Shown one piece after another: positions 19,997 through 27,576 of a DNA stretch of 64,000 nt. Location of the stretch: contig NZ_JNIO01000008.1 of NCBI RefSeq assembly GCF_000702545.1, forward strand, positions 62,001 to 126,000, read 5' to 3'. The notes beneath the pieces are model-generated. The model was not told where the DNA came from and made no database searches. It worked only from the letters and a program-made list of their open reading frames with translations. The stretch comes from Selenomonas sp. AB3002. Lineage in GTDB: Bacteria; Bacillota; Negativicutes; Selenomonadales; Selenomonadaceae. Each line of letters opens with the position of its first letter. Position 1 is the first letter of the stretch. The position numbers and the translations under genes were made by a program.

Positions 19997-21544
19997 TTAA
20001 AGTTCGATAACCTGCCTAAACCTATCCAATATATTCAATTCATGTGTAATAATTATCAGCGTCCTGCTCTGTTCCTGCACTCTTTCAAAGAGTGCCTCAA
20101 GCAGCCGGGACGCTGTTTTTTTGTCCAGTCCTGCGGTGGGTTCGTCAAGGAGCAGCAGGGGAGAAGGGGCGGCAAGGGCCAGGGCGGTGAGCAGGCGGTT
20201 GCGTTCCCCGCCTGACAGGCTGCTGCCGTCAAAGCCCAAGGGGGTATCAAGTCCCTGGGGGAGGCTGGTCAGGCAGTCTGTAAGTTGTGCTGTTTCCAGG
20301 CAGGCCATCATTTCTTCCTCTGGCAGTTCCGGATGCAGCCGCAGGAAGTTCTCCCTGATGGACCCGCTGAAAATGAAGCACCCTTGCAGATTCCCGGCGG
20401 GCGGGGCGGAAAGCTTGATTGTCCCGTCCTCTGGCTGGTAAAGTCCTGCCAGCAGATAAGCCAGGGTGGTCTTCCCCCTGCCGCTTTCGCCCATGATGGC
20501 TGTGTGCTGATGGGGGGCGATGGTGAAGGAGAGGTTATGGAAAAGGGGCTGGTCATTGTAACCAAAGGTCAGGTTATCAACCTGCAATAAATCGCCTTTG
20601 CAGGCTGCAGTTGAGGCGGAAGTTGAAGCAGCGACTGCAAGAGACTTGCCTGCTGCCCTGGCTTCTTTCATTTGTTCAAGTGCAGGGAGCAGCACATTGT
20701 AATCCTGGCAGAGGGTCAGCAGGAGCAGCAGCCAGACGGCCAGTTCAATGTAATCCATCCTGGCGGGTACCAGCAGGCAGAGCTGATAGAATAGCAAGGT
20801 GAAGCCGGAGTATTTGACAAGGGAGAGCAGAAGCTCCAGCCAGCAGTTTCGTGCTTGTTCCTTTGCCTGTTGCAGCTGCCAGCGTTCAGCACGCTCCTGC
20901 AAGCGAATCAAGGAAGGCGGAGCAGAACCTGCCGTCAGCAGTTCTTCCCTGCCTTCTGCCATTTCCAGCAGTTCCTGCCGATAGGCTGACTTGGCAGGGG
21001 ATGACCTTGGTTCCCTGGTCAGAAGCCAGCCAAGGGCTGCCATGACTTCGAAGGTTAGGAGCAGGGTCAGGGACAGCAAGGGGTGACAGTCATACAATAT
21101 CCAACAGAAGGCAATGGTTATGACAAGATTCAATGCCAGGGGCAGCAGGGCGCGCACATAGGCATCCCGCAGCAGGCTGCAGTCCCTGATAAGCCGTTCC
21201 AGCCACAGCCCTTGGGACAGGGTGCCTGATTTCAGGGGAAGCATTGACAAGGCAAGGGCATAAACAGATTCCTGAAGCTGGCAATAAGCGTTGAAGGCTA
21301 GCTTATGGCCTGAATACCTTTCCAGATAGCGGAACACCGCCCGGAAGATGCCGCAGGCTCTGACACAGGTAACGCCCAGGGCAAGGGTGTAGAGGGGAGG
21401 CTGGAGAGCAGCCTTGGCGATAAGCCAGGCTCCGGCGCCCATAAGGCCCAGTCCTGTGAGACTTGCCATCAGCCCTGCCAGCAGGGGAGGGAGCAGAGTC
21501 TTCTTTTCCGTATGGGAGAGCAAGAGTTTCAAGGTTTCTGTCAT
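19997..21544 (-). CDS. cydC: Glutathione/cysteine ABC exporter subunit CydC
   Basis: 515 residues. An N-terminal ABC exporter membrane domain of six helices (about 15-300) is followed by an ATPase with Walker A MGESGRGKTT (about 358), signature LSGGERNR (about 440) and Walker B LLLLDEPTAGLD. CydDC exports thiol reductants to the periplasm and is needed for haem insertion into cytochrome bd. It overlaps the cydD stop by 4 bases and is the last gene of cydA-B-D-C. Confidence 0.9.
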   Translation of the reverse strand: MTETLKLLLSHTEKKTLLPPLLAGLMASLTGLGLMGAGAWLIAKAALQPPLYTLALGVTCVRACGIFRAVFRYLERYSGHKLAFNAYCQLQESVYALALSMLPLKSGTLSQGLWLERLIRDCSLLRDAYVRALLPLALNLVITIAFCWILYDCHPLLSLTLLLTFEVMAALGWLLTREPRSSPAKSAYRQELLEMAEGREELLTAGSAPPSLIRLQERAERWQLQQAKEQARNCWLELLLSLVKYSGFTLLFYQLCLLVPARMDYIELAVWLLLLLTLCQDYNVLLPALEQMKEARAAGKSLAVAASTSASTAACKGDLLQVDNLTFGYNDQPLFHNLSFTIAPHQHTAIMGESGRGKTTLAYLLAGLYQPEDGTIKLSAPPAGNLQGCFIFSGSIRENFLRLHPELPEEEMMACLETAQLTDCLTSLPQGLDTPLGFDGSSLSGGERNRLLTALALAAPSPLLLLDEPTAGLDKKTASRLLEALFERVQEQSRTLIIITHELNILDRFRQVIEL

Positions 21545-23163
21545 GGCAATAGCTCCTCCCAGTTGAAGATTTTTTCAGCCCACTCCCTTAGGGCAGGGCG
21601 GTGGGAAACTATCAGCAGAGTGCGTCGGTGGCTGAAGGCTTCAAGAGCACGTATTACGGCTGCTTCTGTCTGGCTGTCCAGTCCGTTGGTAGGCTCGTCC
21701 AGGAGCACCAATGGTCGGTTTTGCAGGATAAGGCGGGCAAGTCCCAGCCGTTTCCGTTCCCCCTGTGACAGGCTGATGCCTTCTGCGCCCAGCCTGGTAT
21801 CAAGCCCCTCAGGCAAAGACTTATGCCAGTTTTCCAGGGAGGCCAGACGCAGGGCCTGCACCATTCTTTCCTTGGGAACGTCCTGAAATAGGGCCAGATT
21901 TTCTGACAAAGTGCCAGAGAAAATCTTTGGCTCCTGGGGCAGATAGCTGATGATTTTCTGACGGCTGACGGGAGCCAGCTTCAGCACATCGCTGTCATTC
22001 AGCAGGACTTCTCCAGTTAGGGGCAGGCTCAGTCCTGCTATGGCCTTTAGCAGAGTGCTCTTGCCGCAGCCGCTGGGGCCGGTGAGGAGAGCTTTGCAGC
22101 CTGCGGGGATAGCAAGACTTAGTCCCTTGAATACAGGCTGCTGACGTCCCTCATAGCCAAGGGAGAGATGGCTTATGCGCAGGGCGGGGGGAATCTGCAG
22201 CTGCCCCTTGTGACCTGCAAGTTCGGGAGGTTCTGCCAGATACTTTTCCAGCTTCTTTTCGGCAGTCCGGGCTTCCATAGCCGCATGGAAGGAGGCGCCA
22301 GCCTGCCTCAGGGGCTGATAATATAAGGGCGTGATAAGCAGCAGGAAGAAGGCCGGCTCGAACTCCAGGCCGCCTCCCAGCAGGCGGAAGCCGATGCTGA
22401 CGGCCACAATGGCGATGGAAAGGGTGGTGATGAGCTCCAGGGCAAAGCTGGAGATAAAGGCAGTCTGCAGTACCTGCAGGGAAGCGGCAGAAAAATCACG
22501 GCTCAATTCTGCCAGCCGCGACTTTTGTCCTTCACCCTGCCGGAAGAGCTTGATGGAAATCATGCCTGCCAATAGTTCGCGGAATTCACTGGTCAGCCGT
22601 AGCAGTTCCTGCCATTGCCTGGCAGTCCGCTCCCTGGTGACTGTGCCAATCAGGTAGAGCAGGAAAGGGGCGATGGGCAGGGTCAGGAGGAACAGTCCTG
22701 CTGTTACATAATCAAGGGCCAGGGCAGAAGCCAGCATGATGGGCATAAGGATTAGGAGGCTAAGTATGTTAGGCAGCACAGCGGAGAAATACCTGCCCAG
22801 GGCTTCTGTGGTTTCCAAGGCAGCGGCTGAAATCTCCTGCGTGTTCTCAGCGGGGGAAAAGAGACTTTCGTGTAGTTTCTGGCGGCAGTCCATGCGGCAA
22901 TGGTGGCTTAACGCATTCAGATATTTCCTTTGCTGCCATCGTGCAGGGCTTCGCAGGCACAGCACAAAAAGCAGCACCAGCAAAGCCGGTGCTGCTTCCA
23001 TATTGCCAGCTCCCAGGGAAAGCTGTCTGGCAGATTCCATCAAATGTGCCAGTGTTCCTGAGGCTCCAAGCAGCAGCAGACTGCCCACAGCTTCAAGAGC
23101 GAAAAGGCGGAAGGTTATGTTTTTGTGTTTATGGCAGGTCTGGTAGAGCAGATTGTTTTTCAT
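21541..23163 (-). CDS. cydD: Glutathione/cysteine ABC exporter subunit CydD
   Basis: 540 residues. A six-helix exporter domain (about 15-310) precedes an ATPase with Walker A LLTGPSGCGKST (about 358), Q-loop YLPQEPKIF, signature LSQGERKR and Walker B PLVLLDEPTNGLD. It starts 3 bases after the cydB stop and partners CydC as a heterodimer. The order cydABDC in one tight unit supports the assignment over generic ABC exporters. Confidence 0.9.
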   Translation of the reverse strand: MKNNLLYQTCHKHKNITFRLFALEAVGSLLLLGASGTLAHLMESARQLSLGAGNMEAAPALLVLLFVLCLRSPARWQQRKYLNALSHHCRMDCRQKLHESLFSPAENTQEISAAALETTEALGRYFSAVLPNILSLLILMPIMLASALALDYVTAGLFLLTLPIAPFLLYLIGTVTRERTARQWQELLRLTSEFRELLAGMISIKLFRQGEGQKSRLAELSRDFSAASLQVLQTAFISSFALELITTLSIAIVAVSIGFRLLGGGLEFEPAFFLLLITPLYYQPLRQAGASFHAAMEARTAEKKLEKYLAEPPELAGHKGQLQIPPALRISHLSLGYEGRQQPVFKGLSLAIPAGCKALLTGPSGCGKSTLLKAIAGLSLPLTGEVLLNDSDVLKLAPVSRQKIISYLPQEPKIFSGTLSENLALFQDVPKERMVQALRLASLENWHKSLPEGLDTRLGAEGISLSQGERKRLGLARLILQNRPLVLLDEPTNGLDSQTEAAVIRALEAFSHRRTLLIVSHRPALREWAEKIFNWEELLP

Positions 23164-23166
23164 GGT

Positions 23167-24177
23167 TCAGTGGTTTCCTAAATCCTTGCCCGTAACCCTG
23201 TGCCTGAACACCCAGTAGCACCAGCCCTGATAGATCAGCACGATGGGCACCAGCACCAGGGCTGCCACGGTCATGATGGACAGGGTGTAGGGAGTGGAAG
23301 AGGCGTTCTCAATGGTGAGGCTGAAAGCCGGGTTGATGGAAGATACCATCAGCCTGGGGAAAAGTCCCGTGAAGAAGGAGCAGGAGACAGCTACGATGGC
23401 CAGGGAGGAGCAGATGAAGCTGCCCCTGAACTTGCCTTGCCCCATGGAAATGTAGCCGGCAATGAAGAGCACTCCTGTCAGCACCAGCAGCAGGGCGGCG
23501 GGGAAGCTGTGGAAAAGGTCGGTCTTGGTAGCCGTGAGCACGAAGCACAGCACAAAGAAGAAGATGGCCGCAGCCCCGGTTTTCAAGGCAAAATCCCTGG
23601 CCCTTAGCACCAGCCCGTAGTCACCCAGCCGCTGGGTGAGGAAGGCGGCCCCGTGGAAGAGGAATACTGTCAGGAAGGTGAAACCTCCCACGATGGTATA
23701 GGCGGAAAGCAGATCGTAGAAACTGCCCAGGTAATGCATTTCATTGTTGATGGGCAGTCCTGCGATGAGATTGGTGACCGCCACACCCCAGAGGAATGCG
23801 GGCACGATGCTGCCGAAGGCGATGCAGCCTTCCCAGAACCTGCGCCAGCAGAGGCAGTCAGCCTTGCCCCGCAGCTCGAAGGCTACCCCCCGGAGAATCA
23901 GGGCCACCAGCATCAGGAACAGGGCCAGGTAGAAAGTGGAGAACATGGTGGAATAAACGTGGGGAAAAGCGGCAAAGAGGGCGCCGCCGGCGGTGATCAT
24001 CCACACTTCATTGCCGTCCCAGACGGGGCCGATGGTGCGGATAATCATGCCCCGTTCCTCATCGGTGCGTCCCATGAAGGGGGCAAGGCCGCCCACGCCG
24101 TAGTCAAAGCCCTCCAGGAAGAAGAAGCCCGTGAAGAGCACGGTAATCAGCACGAACCATAAGACGTTCAGTTCCAT
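23167..24177 (-). CDS. cydB: Cytochrome bd oxidase subunit II (CydB)
   Basis: 336 residues, MELNVLWFVLITVLF onward, with the family-typical GFFFLEGFDYGVGGL and GPVWDGNEVWMITAGGALFAAFP near the N-terminus and about eight transmembrane helices. Adjacent ATGs at 24180 and 24177 are both possible; both overlap the cydA stop (ATGATG containing TGA). CydB scaffolds CydA in the quinol oxidase that reduces O2 at high affinity. Confidence 0.93.
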   Translation of the reverse strand: MELNVLWFVLITVLFTGFFFLEGFDYGVGGLAPFMGRTDEERGMIIRTIGPVWDGNEVWMITAGGALFAAFPHVYSTMFSTFYLALFLMLVALILRGVAFELRGKADCLCWRRFWEGCIAFGSIVPAFLWGVAVTNLIAGLPINNEMHYLGSFYDLLSAYTIVGGFTFLTVFLFHGAAFLTQRLGDYGLVLRARDFALKTGAAAIFFFVLCFVLTATKTDLFHSFPAALLLVLTGVLFIAGYISMGQGKFRGSFICSSLAIVAVSCSFFTGLFPRLMVSSINPAFSLTIENASSTPYTLSIMTVAALVLVPIVLIYQGWCYWVFRHRVTGKDLGNH

Positions 24178-25547
24178 CATCCATTCCTCCCTTCTGTCTG
24201 CAGGACTTTGGTGCGGTTGATGAAGCGGAAGGCCGCATAGAGGGCGGCCATGGCCAGCAGGAGATAGATTACAGTGAAGCCAATCATGGTAAGCCACACC
24301 TCGCCTCCCGTGATATTGGGAGAAACGGCATCGGCAGTTTTCTGCAGGCCTACCACTATCCAGGGCTGGCGCCCTCCCTCGGCGATGAACCAGCCCACGG
24401 AATTGGCTATGAAGGGCAGGGGAAGCAGCCAGGGCAGCAGCTTCAGCGCGCAGCTGAAGTTATCCAGCCTGCCAGTCCAGGCTAAAAAGCCCATGGCACC
24501 GGCGATGAAAGCCATGAGGCCGCCCACACCTACCATGATGCGGAAGCTCCAGAAGAGGCCTGTCACATCGGGACGGTAGTCGCCGGCCCCGTACTTGGCT
24601 ACAGCTTCTTTCTGCAAATCGTTGATGCCTTTGACTTCGCCCTCAGGCGCATTGTAGAGCATGAAGGAGAAGAGGGCGGGGACTGCAATCTCAAAGTCAT
24701 TCTTGCCCTGTTCCTGGTTGATATCCGCCATGATGGCGAAGGGGGCGGGATTTTCCGTCTCCCAGAGTGCTTCCATGGAGGAGAGCTTCATGGGGTTGGC
24801 TTCCCGCAGGTACTGGGCATGGAGATGGCCAGTGCCCATGACGCCAAGGGTGCCCACCAGCATATAGACAGCCCCGGCTTTCAGGGTCTGCTTGAAGGCT
24901 TCTTTGGAATCATAGTCATGGGCAATCTTCCAGGCGGATACCGCCAGCACCACGAAGCCGCCTGTGGCCAGGCCTGCGCAAAGGGCGTGGGTGTACTCGC
25001 CAACCACATAGGGATTGGTCACCAGGGCGAAGAAATCTGTCATCTCAGCCCGGCCGTTGTTCACGGCATAGCCCACAGGGTGCTGCATGAAGGAGTTGGC
25101 CACCAGGATCCAGAAGGCGGACAGGTTGCTGCCGATGGCCACCAGCCAGATGCAGGCGCAGTGGGCTTTCTCCGACAGCTTGTCCCAGCCGAACATCCAG
25201 ATGCCCAGGAAGGTGGACTCCAGGAAGAAGGCGGTGAGAGCTTCCAGGGCCAGAGGCGCGCCGAAGATATCCCCCATGAAGCGGGAATACTCTGACCAGT
25301 TCATGCCGAAGTGGAACTCCTGCACGATGCCTGTGACTACGCCCATGGCAAAATTGATGAGGAAAATAGTGCCGAAGAATTTCGTGAGCTTCTTGCATAC
25401 GGGCTTCCACTCCGGGTGCTGAGTCCGCACATAGCAGGTCTCCAGCAGAGCCGTGAAGATGGAAAGCCCCAGGGTAATGGGGACGAAGAGAAAATGGTAA
25501 ACCGTGGTGATGGCAAACTGCCATCTGGATAGCAGCAAGGCTTCCAT
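24177..25547 (-). CDS. cydA: Cytochrome bd oxidase subunit I (CydA)
   Basis: 456 residues. The start is the ATG at 25547, preceded by GAGGAGGG. Visible haem-ligand and quinol motifs: VYHFLFVPITLG (His18, high-spin haem), the His region HALCAGLATGGF, FRIMVGVGGLM (Met ligand of haem b558) and GRQPWIVVGLQKT. The periplasmic loop before FRIM is short, so this is a short-Q-loop cytochrome bd of about 456 rather than 520 residues. In an anaerobe this oxidase mainly scavenges oxygen. It follows the pseudo-ATPase gene by 33 bases, same strand. Confidence 0.95.
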   Translation of the reverse strand: MEALLLSRWQFAITTVYHFLFVPITLGLSIFTALLETCYVRTQHPEWKPVCKKLTKFFGTIFLINFAMGVVTGIVQEFHFGMNWSEYSRFMGDIFGAPLALEALTAFFLESTFLGIWMFGWDKLSEKAHCACIWLVAIGSNLSAFWILVANSFMQHPVGYAVNNGRAEMTDFFALVTNPYVVGEYTHALCAGLATGGFVVLAVSAWKIAHDYDSKEAFKQTLKAGAVYMLVGTLGVMGTGHLHAQYLREANPMKLSSMEALWETENPAPFAIMADINQEQGKNDFEIAVPALFSFMLYNAPEGEVKGINDLQKEAVAKYGAGDYRPDVTGLFWSFRIMVGVGGLMAFIAGAMGFLAWTGRLDNFSCALKLLPWLLPLPFIANSVGWFIAEGGRQPWIVVGLQKTADAVSPNITGGEVWLTMIGFTVIYLLLAMAALYAAFRFINRTKVLQTEGRNG

Positions 25548-25580: not shown

Positions 25581-26891
25581 TCACGCCCTGAAGGAAATAA
25601 GGAGAATGAACACGGCAATCAATAGATTGCCAAGTATTGAAACTACAGGGTCAACGAAGGGAACTCCGAAAGGCGTCAGGGTGTTGGTAGCAGGAAGCAT
25701 AAGTGCCAGGCAGAGCACCATGGCAATCATCCGTTGCTGCTTCACCAGTTTCATGCCCACCGCCGCCCTGTTGCGCAGCCTGGCCAGTGCCAGGAAATTG
25801 CCTTGGGGAATGCTGATATGGGGCTTGACTGGTGTCTTGGCAGCAAAGCTGTCCTTCACCTCCGGCTGGGGAGGCTCATCGGGGAAATCCGGGTCGGGGC
25901 CGGGAGTTTCTTCCTCTGCTTTGCCTTCGGCAGGGGGAGTTTCGCCTTTTTTATCCTGGGCAGAGGGCAGCCAGGCAATGCGCACATCTGCTGCTTCCAT
26001 AAGTTCTTTGTCCAGTTCACAGTCCCCCAGCACGGCGATGACGTCTTTTCTGGTGCGCATAAGGTGCAGTTCCCGTGTTTTTTGCTCCGGGAAAATCTCG
26101 AAGCGTATGTCGTCAATGTTGGTCTGCTTCTTGATATAGCTGGCATTGCGCTTGTTCAGCCCTGTCAGCAACATGAGCTTCAGTCCCAGCTTTTGCAGCC
26201 TGTGCAGGGCTGCGATGGTGTCGAAGCTGATTTCCCTCTGAACGGCGATAAGTCCCCGGGAGTATTTGCCTGAGCAGACAAAGACGGGAATCATGCCCTT
26301 GAGGGAAAGCTGGTCTGCCCTGGTGAGAAATTCTGCGCTGATATCAGCTTCCTCGCTTTTCAGCCAGGCAGCATTGCCCACCCGTACGGGAATGCGGCTG
26401 ATGATGGCCTCCGCCCCCTGCCCGGGAAGCTCGTTGAAATTCGTCACCGGCTGGAGCCGCAGACGGCGGTCGGAAGCAGTCTGGCAGATGAGTTGGGCAA
26501 TGGGGTGAGTGGAGCCTGATTCCACACTGGCAGCCATGGACAGCAGTGTTCCCTGGGAAACGCCCTGGGGAATGAGCTCCGTGATGAAGGCCGCGCCGCT
26601 GGTGAGGAAGCGGCTGTGGGTGAGTACCAGCGTAGAGGCAGAAGCCAGCTCTGAGAGACTGCCTTTCTTATGTACATTGATGCCCAGTTCCTCAGCCCGG
26701 CAGCCAATGCGGTACATGACCAGAGGGCGGGAGGCAATCAGGGGCAGGGGAAGCCCTGCCAGCAGTACAGAGAGGGCGGTGGCTATCACCATCACCAGAG
26801 GTGCCTGCTGCATCTGTTGCCAGTAGCCTGCTCCAAAGGCAATGAGGATGACAAAGGCCTGCCAAAGTTTGATGATAAGACTATGTCCCAT
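25581..26891 (-). CDS. Degenerate P1B-type ATPase-like protein
   Basis: 436 residues. It aligns by eye with the C-terminal two-thirds of CopA/ZntA-like metal ATPases but has lost the catalytic residues. The membrane metal site CPC-A-x is LPLPLIASRP (about 46). The phosphorylation motif DKTGTLT is LTHSRFLTSG (about 90), with no Asp. The nucleotide-domain HP motif survives (ESGSTHPIAQLI, about 125) and so does LPGQGAEAII. The hinge GDGxND is LGDCELDKELMEAADVRIAW. A proline/acidic low-complexity stretch (about 312-345) precedes two final membrane helices. The actuator domain is absent. It heads the cyd operon, 33 bases before cydA. I infer a non-transporting structural or sensory role; function unproven. 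Confidence 0.7.
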   Translation of the reverse strand: MGHSLIIKLWQAFVILIAFGAGYWQQMQQAPLVMVIATALSVLLAGLPLPLIASRPLVMYRIGCRAEELGINVHKKGSLSELASASTLVLTHSRFLTSGAAFITELIPQGVSQGTLLSMAASVESGSTHPIAQLICQTASDRRLRLQPVTNFNELPGQGAEAIISRIPVRVGNAAWLKSEEADISAEFLTRADQLSLKGMIPVFVCSGKYSRGLIAVQREISFDTIAALHRLQKLGLKLMLLTGLNKRNASYIKKQTNIDDIRFEIFPEQKTRELHLMRTRKDVIAVLGDCELDKELMEAADVRIAWLPSAQDKKGETPPAEGKAEEETPGPDPDFPDEPPQPEVKDSFAAKTPVKPHISIPQGNFLALARLRNRAAVGMKLVKQQRMIAMVLCLALMLPATNTLTPFGVPFVDPVVSILGNLLIAVFILLISFRA

Positions 26892-27177: not shown

Positions 27178-27576
27178 TTGGTTGGAATTGTGATAGTCTC
27201 CCATAGCCATACTTTGGCTGAGGGCGTTAGAGAACTGGCGGAGATGATGGCCCGTGAAGTGAAGATTGCCTGCGCTGGCGGATTGGAAGAAGGCATCAGC
27301 GGCGTCAGCTATGAGCGCATCACAAATGCAGTGGAAGAAGTCTGCGGCCGTGATGGTGCCGTGATTTTCGGCGATATGGGCAGCGCTATGCTCACCAGCG
27401 AACTGGTACTGGAGGAAATGAAGGATGACAAGCTGCATCTGGTGAACGCTCCTCTGGTAGAGGGGGTAGTGAGGGCGGCAGCTCTGGCCTCCGGCGGGGC
27501 CGATGTGGAAACCATCGTTCAGCGGGTAGAAGCAGAATGGAAAAGGCAGGAGGGTGATTGCTATAGTATTTCGTGA
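27178..27576 (+). CDS. EIIA-Man/DhaM-like phosphocarrier
   Basis: 132 residues starting at TTG with GGAGAG eight bases upstream. MVGIVIVSHSHTLAEGV carries the phosphorylatable His of the mannose-EIIA/DhaM fold (His10 in SHS). CAGGLEEGISGVSYERITNAVEEV and GDMGSAMLTSELVLEEM match DhaM, which passes phosphate from HPr to the DhaL-ADP cofactor of dihydroxyacetone kinase. No dhaK or dhaL gene is in the window, so the partner is elsewhere or the role differs. It overlaps the next gene by 23 bases. Confidence 0.75.
   Translation: MVGIVIVSHSHTLAEGVRELAEMMAREVKIACAGGLEEGISGVSYERITNAVEEVCGRDGAVIFGDMGSAMLTSELVLEEMKDDKLHLVNAPLVEGVVRAAALASGGADVETIVQRVEAEWKRQEGDCYSIS

Follow-up and report, generated by a model that had tools for sequence, protein, structure and literature searches.

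The region analysed here (the window) is a stretch of 64,000 nucleotides from Selenomonas sp. AB3002 (contig NZ_JNIO01000008.1, positions 62,001 to 126,000); in what follows genera are denoted by codes (g1, g5 and so on), genomes by G numbers and loci by L numbers. On the reverse strand of the window, positions 25581 to 26891 hold an ATG-initiated open reading frame of 436 amino acids without an internal stop, here called pseudo-CopA, and the closest named relative of its product is a 78% identical protein from a Selenomonas sp. MAG. The same strand continues with cydA (24177-25547; PF01654, 3.4e-163), cydB (23167-24180; PF02322, 1e-96, and TIGR00203, 4e-88), cydD (21541-23163; TIGR02857, 8.6e-131) and cydC (19997-21544; TIGR02868, 4.3e-89, just below the curated cut-off of that profile). 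Pseudo-CopA and cydA are separated by 33 bp when counted to the conserved ATG at 25547, the spacing given in the earlier note on this DNA, and by 27 bp when counted to an upstream TTG. On the other side, a divergent gene at 27178-27576 (forward strand) encodes a DhaM-like phosphotransferase domain protein; in G003 and G004 the two are set apart by other genes that together span about 5 kb.

Profile searches matched the 436-aa protein to TIGR01525 (4.5e-35) and to the Pfam HAD hydrolase family (2e-10), and the PDB entry for CopA, 3j08, matched it across residues 12-306 (4e-27). The family profile matched Legionella CopA (3rfu) at 4.5e-86 over CopA residues 337-733, a span that takes in transmembrane helices, both cytoplasmic domains (P and N) and the final helix pair. 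Homology to P1B-ATPases is far beyond chance, and the sequence reads as that of a truncated ATPase of the CopA type. Hydrophobic segments were confined to residues 1-60 (26712-26891), which align within 3rfu 337-733 to the helix pair preceding the P-domain, and to residues 387-436 (25584-25733), which align to the last two CopA helices, so that the two segments flank the P- and N-domains. An AlphaFold model built from two sequences had a pLDDT of 36 and a pTM of 0.20 and was left unused.

Alignment to intact CopA showed that the motifs required of a functional enzyme have been lost or altered. The phosphorylation motif DKTGT, which carries the phospho-Asp, is replaced by THSRF (residues 91-95, 26607-26621) and the CPC/CPx metal site by LPL (residues 47-49, 26745-26753); TGD has become TGL (residues 243-245, 26157-26165) and GDGIND has become GDCELD (residues 289-294, 26010-26027). 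The A-domain with its TGE is missing, as are the first four of the eight helices. The earlier note had described a dead P1B-ATPase relative that retains THPIAQ and LPGQGAEA and has lost the phospho-Asp of DKTGT, the CPC site and the actuator domain, and every part of this description agrees with the alignment and with the TIGR01525, 3j08 and 3rfu matches. It had also listed GDGxND as lacking, which is correct insofar as the motif is not intact, but a degenerate version of it remains.

The putative nucleotide contacts of the N-domain (residues 101-216, 26244-26591) have fared differently from the catalytic motifs. The P1B nucleotide pocket includes the Glu and His of the E...HP motif (PMC5089723), and the pocket of ATP7B includes G1099, G1101, G1149 and N1150 (PMC3203118). 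The predicted counterparts in the window protein are E124 and the HP motif H129-P130 (26502-26522), the GxG nucleotide loop G157/G159 (26415-26423), and G172 (26376-26378), the equivalent of G1149. Across the degenerate family described below, genus-weighted retention was 0.98 for E124, 0.92 for H129, 0.82 for P130, 0.78 for G157 and 1.00 for both G159 and G172, as against 0.04 for the phospho-Asp, 0.07 for the Thr of DKTGT, 0.33, 0.11 and 0.10 for the D, G and N of GDGxND, and 0.36 and 0.04 for the two cysteines of CPC, the proline of which was kept at 0.90. As far as residue identities can tell, this contrast indicates that phosphoryl transfer and metal binding are gone whereas the residues of the nucleotide pocket stayed. 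The equivalent of Asn1150 was retained at 0.11 only, a position that Lys occupies even in the intact enzymes of g9 and g15.

Some points weigh against nucleotide binding. An isolated P1B N-domain can be a weak binder of ATP (PMC5089723). Taken alone, H129 is weak evidence, because the H1069Q substitution is reported not to alter the affinity for ATP that the ATP7B domain shows in isolation (PMC3203118), and the glycines of GxG and at G172 may be retained for folding. The HP motif has lost its His, its Pro or both in genera g5, g12, g18, g2 and g4 and in species such as G005, so that binding may not extend to all members. These losses, together with the fact that glycine conservation can be structural, would fit a protein that has given up nucleotide binding altogether and serves as a structural scaffold or adaptor; we regard this as unlikely, since the polar contacts E124 and H129 have outlasted nearly all other chemistry in the family. 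A role as a metal or haem sensor was also considered and rejected: apart from the His of HP and a single CPC cysteine that is itself fading, the family conserves none of its Cys, Met or His residues, which makes the copper or haem sensor proposed in the earlier note unlikely.

Among 151 Selenomonadaceae genomes, 137 gave a match at E <= 1e-28, that of G059 being to a canonical CopA only. We extracted 122 orthologues, comprising 6 intact CopAs (genera g9, g15, g39 and g40) and 116 degenerate members from 23 genera. The intact locus CopAs are 738-756 aa long with all catalytic motifs present (the g39 copy is cut by a contig end), and the degenerate members range from 266 to 734 aa, with gene starts chosen mechanically. 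Those of g5 and g46 are about 660-730 aa long and include an A-domain remnant, those of g4, g6, g11, g13, g19 and g20 are about 530-650 aa long without such a remnant, and those of the remaining genera are mostly about 380-480 aa; by homology and hydropathy, the core helices are retained in the short forms. DKTGT and CPC are absent from all 116 degenerate members, and the phospho-Asp survives in one of them only, G023, where it stands in DRSGT in a protein without an A-domain or GDGxND. Among the matches listed for 155 genomes of other Negativicutes families, none looked degenerate; the best two (G274 and G294) are intact, and the one short frame among them (G172, here a genome) is a frame-split CopA that retains DKTGT.

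The gene has been lost in some lineages. In G042 the loss is clean, ispE and cydA now being divergent neighbours only about 290 bp apart (L183), and in g10 a ferredoxin-like 4Fe-4S protein is encoded between cydA and ispE at the place expected for pseudo-CopA (L167:586-1428 and L168:596-1447, both forward strand). In G011, which is without pseudo-CopA, the gene ahead of ispE (L162:983-1312, forward strand) encodes a CsoR/FrmR-like regulator whose N-terminus (HEHVHEDGTVHTHHGHTHSH) is rich in His. An unannotated TPR-like protein of about 235 aa (cluster c8) is encoded near pseudo-CopA or the cyd genes at 9 of the 41 loci compared, among them L041, L045, L053, L063, L064 and L072.

Selection on the gene was assessed from pairwise dN/dS within genera by NG86, a simple method. 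Close pairs mostly gave values of 0.03-0.25, and the pooled value over 28 pairs was 0.13. Constraint differed among domains, being strongest in the N-domain (0.06), intermediate in the P-domain parts (0.10-0.13) and membrane parts (0.14-0.17), and weakest in the Pro/Glu-rich variable linker (0.23; residues 309-365, 25797-25967). Pseudo-CopA is under strong purifying selection and is not in neutral decay; these values and the open frames rule out a recent pseudogene or frameshift and bear out the view that the gene is kept by selection. With catalytic motifs lost and purifying selection acting on what remains, the family has both marks of a pseudoenzyme. That it is nevertheless a functionless relic in slow decay would accord with its long branches and stepwise truncation, with an in-frame stop inside the matched core of three members (G049, G079 and G156), and with the losses in G042, between ispE and cydA, and at this locus in g10. 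We consider such decay very improbable, because it is contradicted by a dN/dS of about 0.13 with domain-specific constraint, by open frames in nearly all of about 130 genomes, and by survival of the gene after relocation. The gene also persists in lineages that have lost its two ancestral neighbours (g2, g12, g18, g44 and part of g16).

In a tree of 280 columns from which the motif columns were excluded, all degenerate members grouped in a single clade (bootstrap 100, SH-aLRT 99) that arises from within the intact CopAs of the locus, although the degenerate branches are long and a long-branch effect is possible. Orthology in this tree joins the 4e-27 CopA match and the 4.5e-86 profile match in identifying the family as P1B homologues by descent. 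Synteny with ispE is found for the intact genes of g15 and g40, while copZ is shared by g9 and csoR by g39. In g40 an intact csoR-copA-copZ sits between ispE and cydABDC, and this layout, in which ispE is divergent from csoR-copA-copZ and cydABDC follows, is likely ancestral. Homologues with intact DKTGT at the same place, which in the earlier note were to signify a recent pseudogene, do exist, but they represent the ancestral state and not recent decay. The phospho-Asp was probably lost more than once, following an earlier inactivation, because it persists in g19. Neighbour clusters c2, c3, c5 and c4 were identified by sequence inspection as ispE, a GntR regulator, glmU and prs; as functional partners they were set aside, being housekeeping genes without which pseudo-CopA persists.

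In the six genomes whose locus CopA is intact there is no second CopA of about 850 aa, whereas essentially all genomes with a degenerate member carry one elsewhere; exceptions or unclear cases are the incomplete genomes G051 and G126 and those of g18, which are fragmented. We infer that the locus copy was set free when copper export came to be served by a replacement encoded elsewhere. The same correlation could instead reflect a dead protomer that hetero-oligomerises with, or competes for, the intact CopA and so tunes copper export. Control of a parent paralogue by a pseudoenzyme derived from it has precedent (PMC10211241), and the four retained helices match core helices of CopA. Replacement alone accounts for the correlation, however; the genes for pseudo-CopA and the ~850-aa CopA are unlinked, genomes that lack pseudo-CopA (G011, G014, G016, G042, G055, G058, G059 and G075) carry the same CopA, and conservation peaks in the N-domain and not in the membrane part. 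A role as a partner of CopA is accordingly doubtful.

In genus g5 a CopZ-like protein is still encoded downstream of pseudo-CopA (L043:10571-10783, forward strand; also L138, L156 and L141). Its MxCxxC motif is kept in G053 (MMCEHC) and lost in 4 of 5 species through the absence of one or both cysteines (KDEHC in G009, FDEDC in G072, TNERC in G084 and DSSHS in G092), and the body of the protein (AALGDLEGMH) is conserved. We read this as a pseudo-chaperone paired with a pseudo-pump, and as a second sign of a role other than copper handling.

The position of pseudo-CopA ahead of the cyd genes had led the earlier note to tie it to cytochrome bd, as an assembly factor or a regulator of CydDC. The gene lies directly upstream of cydA on the same strand, within 0.7 kb, in 37 of the 105 genomes that bear both a degenerate member and cydA, a figure lowered by contig breaks in the many MAGs; these 37 belong to 8 genera (g1, g3, g8, g14, g17, g19, g46 and part of g16). 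In five of six g1 species the gap is 24-61 bp, hardly enough to accommodate a separate promoter, and g1 (G000-G004) and g8 have kept the link to cydA while losing that to ispE. Co-transcription with cydA is plausible in the genus of the window because the gap is short, and a search of that gap found nothing resembling a terminator. The wider distribution does not bear out the tie. All 11 well-assembled genomes without cydA retain pseudo-CopA and all 8 well-assembled genomes without pseudo-CopA have cydA, and a co-occurrence test showed no association between the two (Fisher p 0.59, well-assembled genomes). In g16, moreover, a terminator-like stem of 10-12 bp and a promoter-like TTGTAA-17-TATAAT separate the genes. 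An obligate cyd partner is ruled out by this co-occurrence and these transcription signals, and, since adjacency to cyd predates the decay (as the intact csoR-copA-copZ of g40 shows), the link looks inherited from an ancestral copA-cyd arrangement rather than functional. A factor specific to cytochrome bd is on these grounds quite improbable for the family, although there may be a local cyd role in g1 or g8. Our search of the open-access literature turned up no account of a dead P-type ATPase encoded next to cyd genes. An upstream element, GCAGGATAA, was dropped from consideration; it occurs with 14 of the 122 orthologues, is limited to g1 and part of g16, and resembles a -10 box.

The reading that we hold to be somewhat probable, from comparison of sequences, is that pseudo-CopA is a family-wide pseudoenzyme derived from the CopA of an ancestral csoR-copA-copZ locus and would now act as a membrane-anchored regulator or scaffold that binds ATP or ADP and does not hydrolyse it. 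Once the ~850-aa CopA encoded elsewhere had taken over copper export, the locus copy would have been free to lose the metal site and the phospho-Asp along with its A-domain and the first four of its helices. The resulting membrane-anchored protein may bind nucleotide without turnover, and its nucleotide-loaded state might exert allosteric control over, or act as a scaffold for, a membrane partner, for which cytochrome bd would not be obligatory.

P-type ATPases are textbook pumps, and their phosphorylated aspartate is deemed indispensable. To our knowledge, this would be the first conserved bacterial family of P-type pseudo-ATPases to be described. That such a family retained nucleotide sensing (in g5 together with a co-degenerate pseudo-CopZ) and became a non-copper membrane regulator is a proposal we make tentatively, at somewhat less than even confidence. 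A clade of at least 23 genera that has discarded the aspartate and yet preserves the protein, with its ATP pocket and some of its membrane core, would be a natural experiment that separates nucleotide sensing from transport. The series from intact to dead at one locus, preserved in living genera, makes the evolutionary route testable. Such genes will mostly be labelled as a generic ATPase or hydrolase in annotation, and their real role has therefore not been looked for.

The nearest known system is the intact locus CopA of g9, g15, g39 and g40, a direct orthologue by the tree and also by ispE synteny in g15 and g40, which differs in its full length and complete catalytic motifs. With CopA-type Cu+-ATPases in general (P1B-1; TIGR01525/TIGR01511; PDB 3rfu, 3j08 and 7r0g) pseudo-CopA shares the P-domain scaffold, the E, HP, GxG and Gly contacts of the N-domain, the helix pair before the P-domain (with the Pro of CPC) and the last two helices, but it lacks the heavy-metal-binding domain, the A-domain and the first four helices, and it has neither the CPC cysteines, the phospho-Asp nor an intact GDGxND. 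P-type ATPases are not mentioned in a review of pseudoenzymes (PMC10211241), yet the pseudokinase-type pseudoenzymes treated there have likewise lost catalytic residues while their fold and apparent ligand pocket remain under selection; pseudo-CopA differs from them in being a membrane pump reduced to half its helices.
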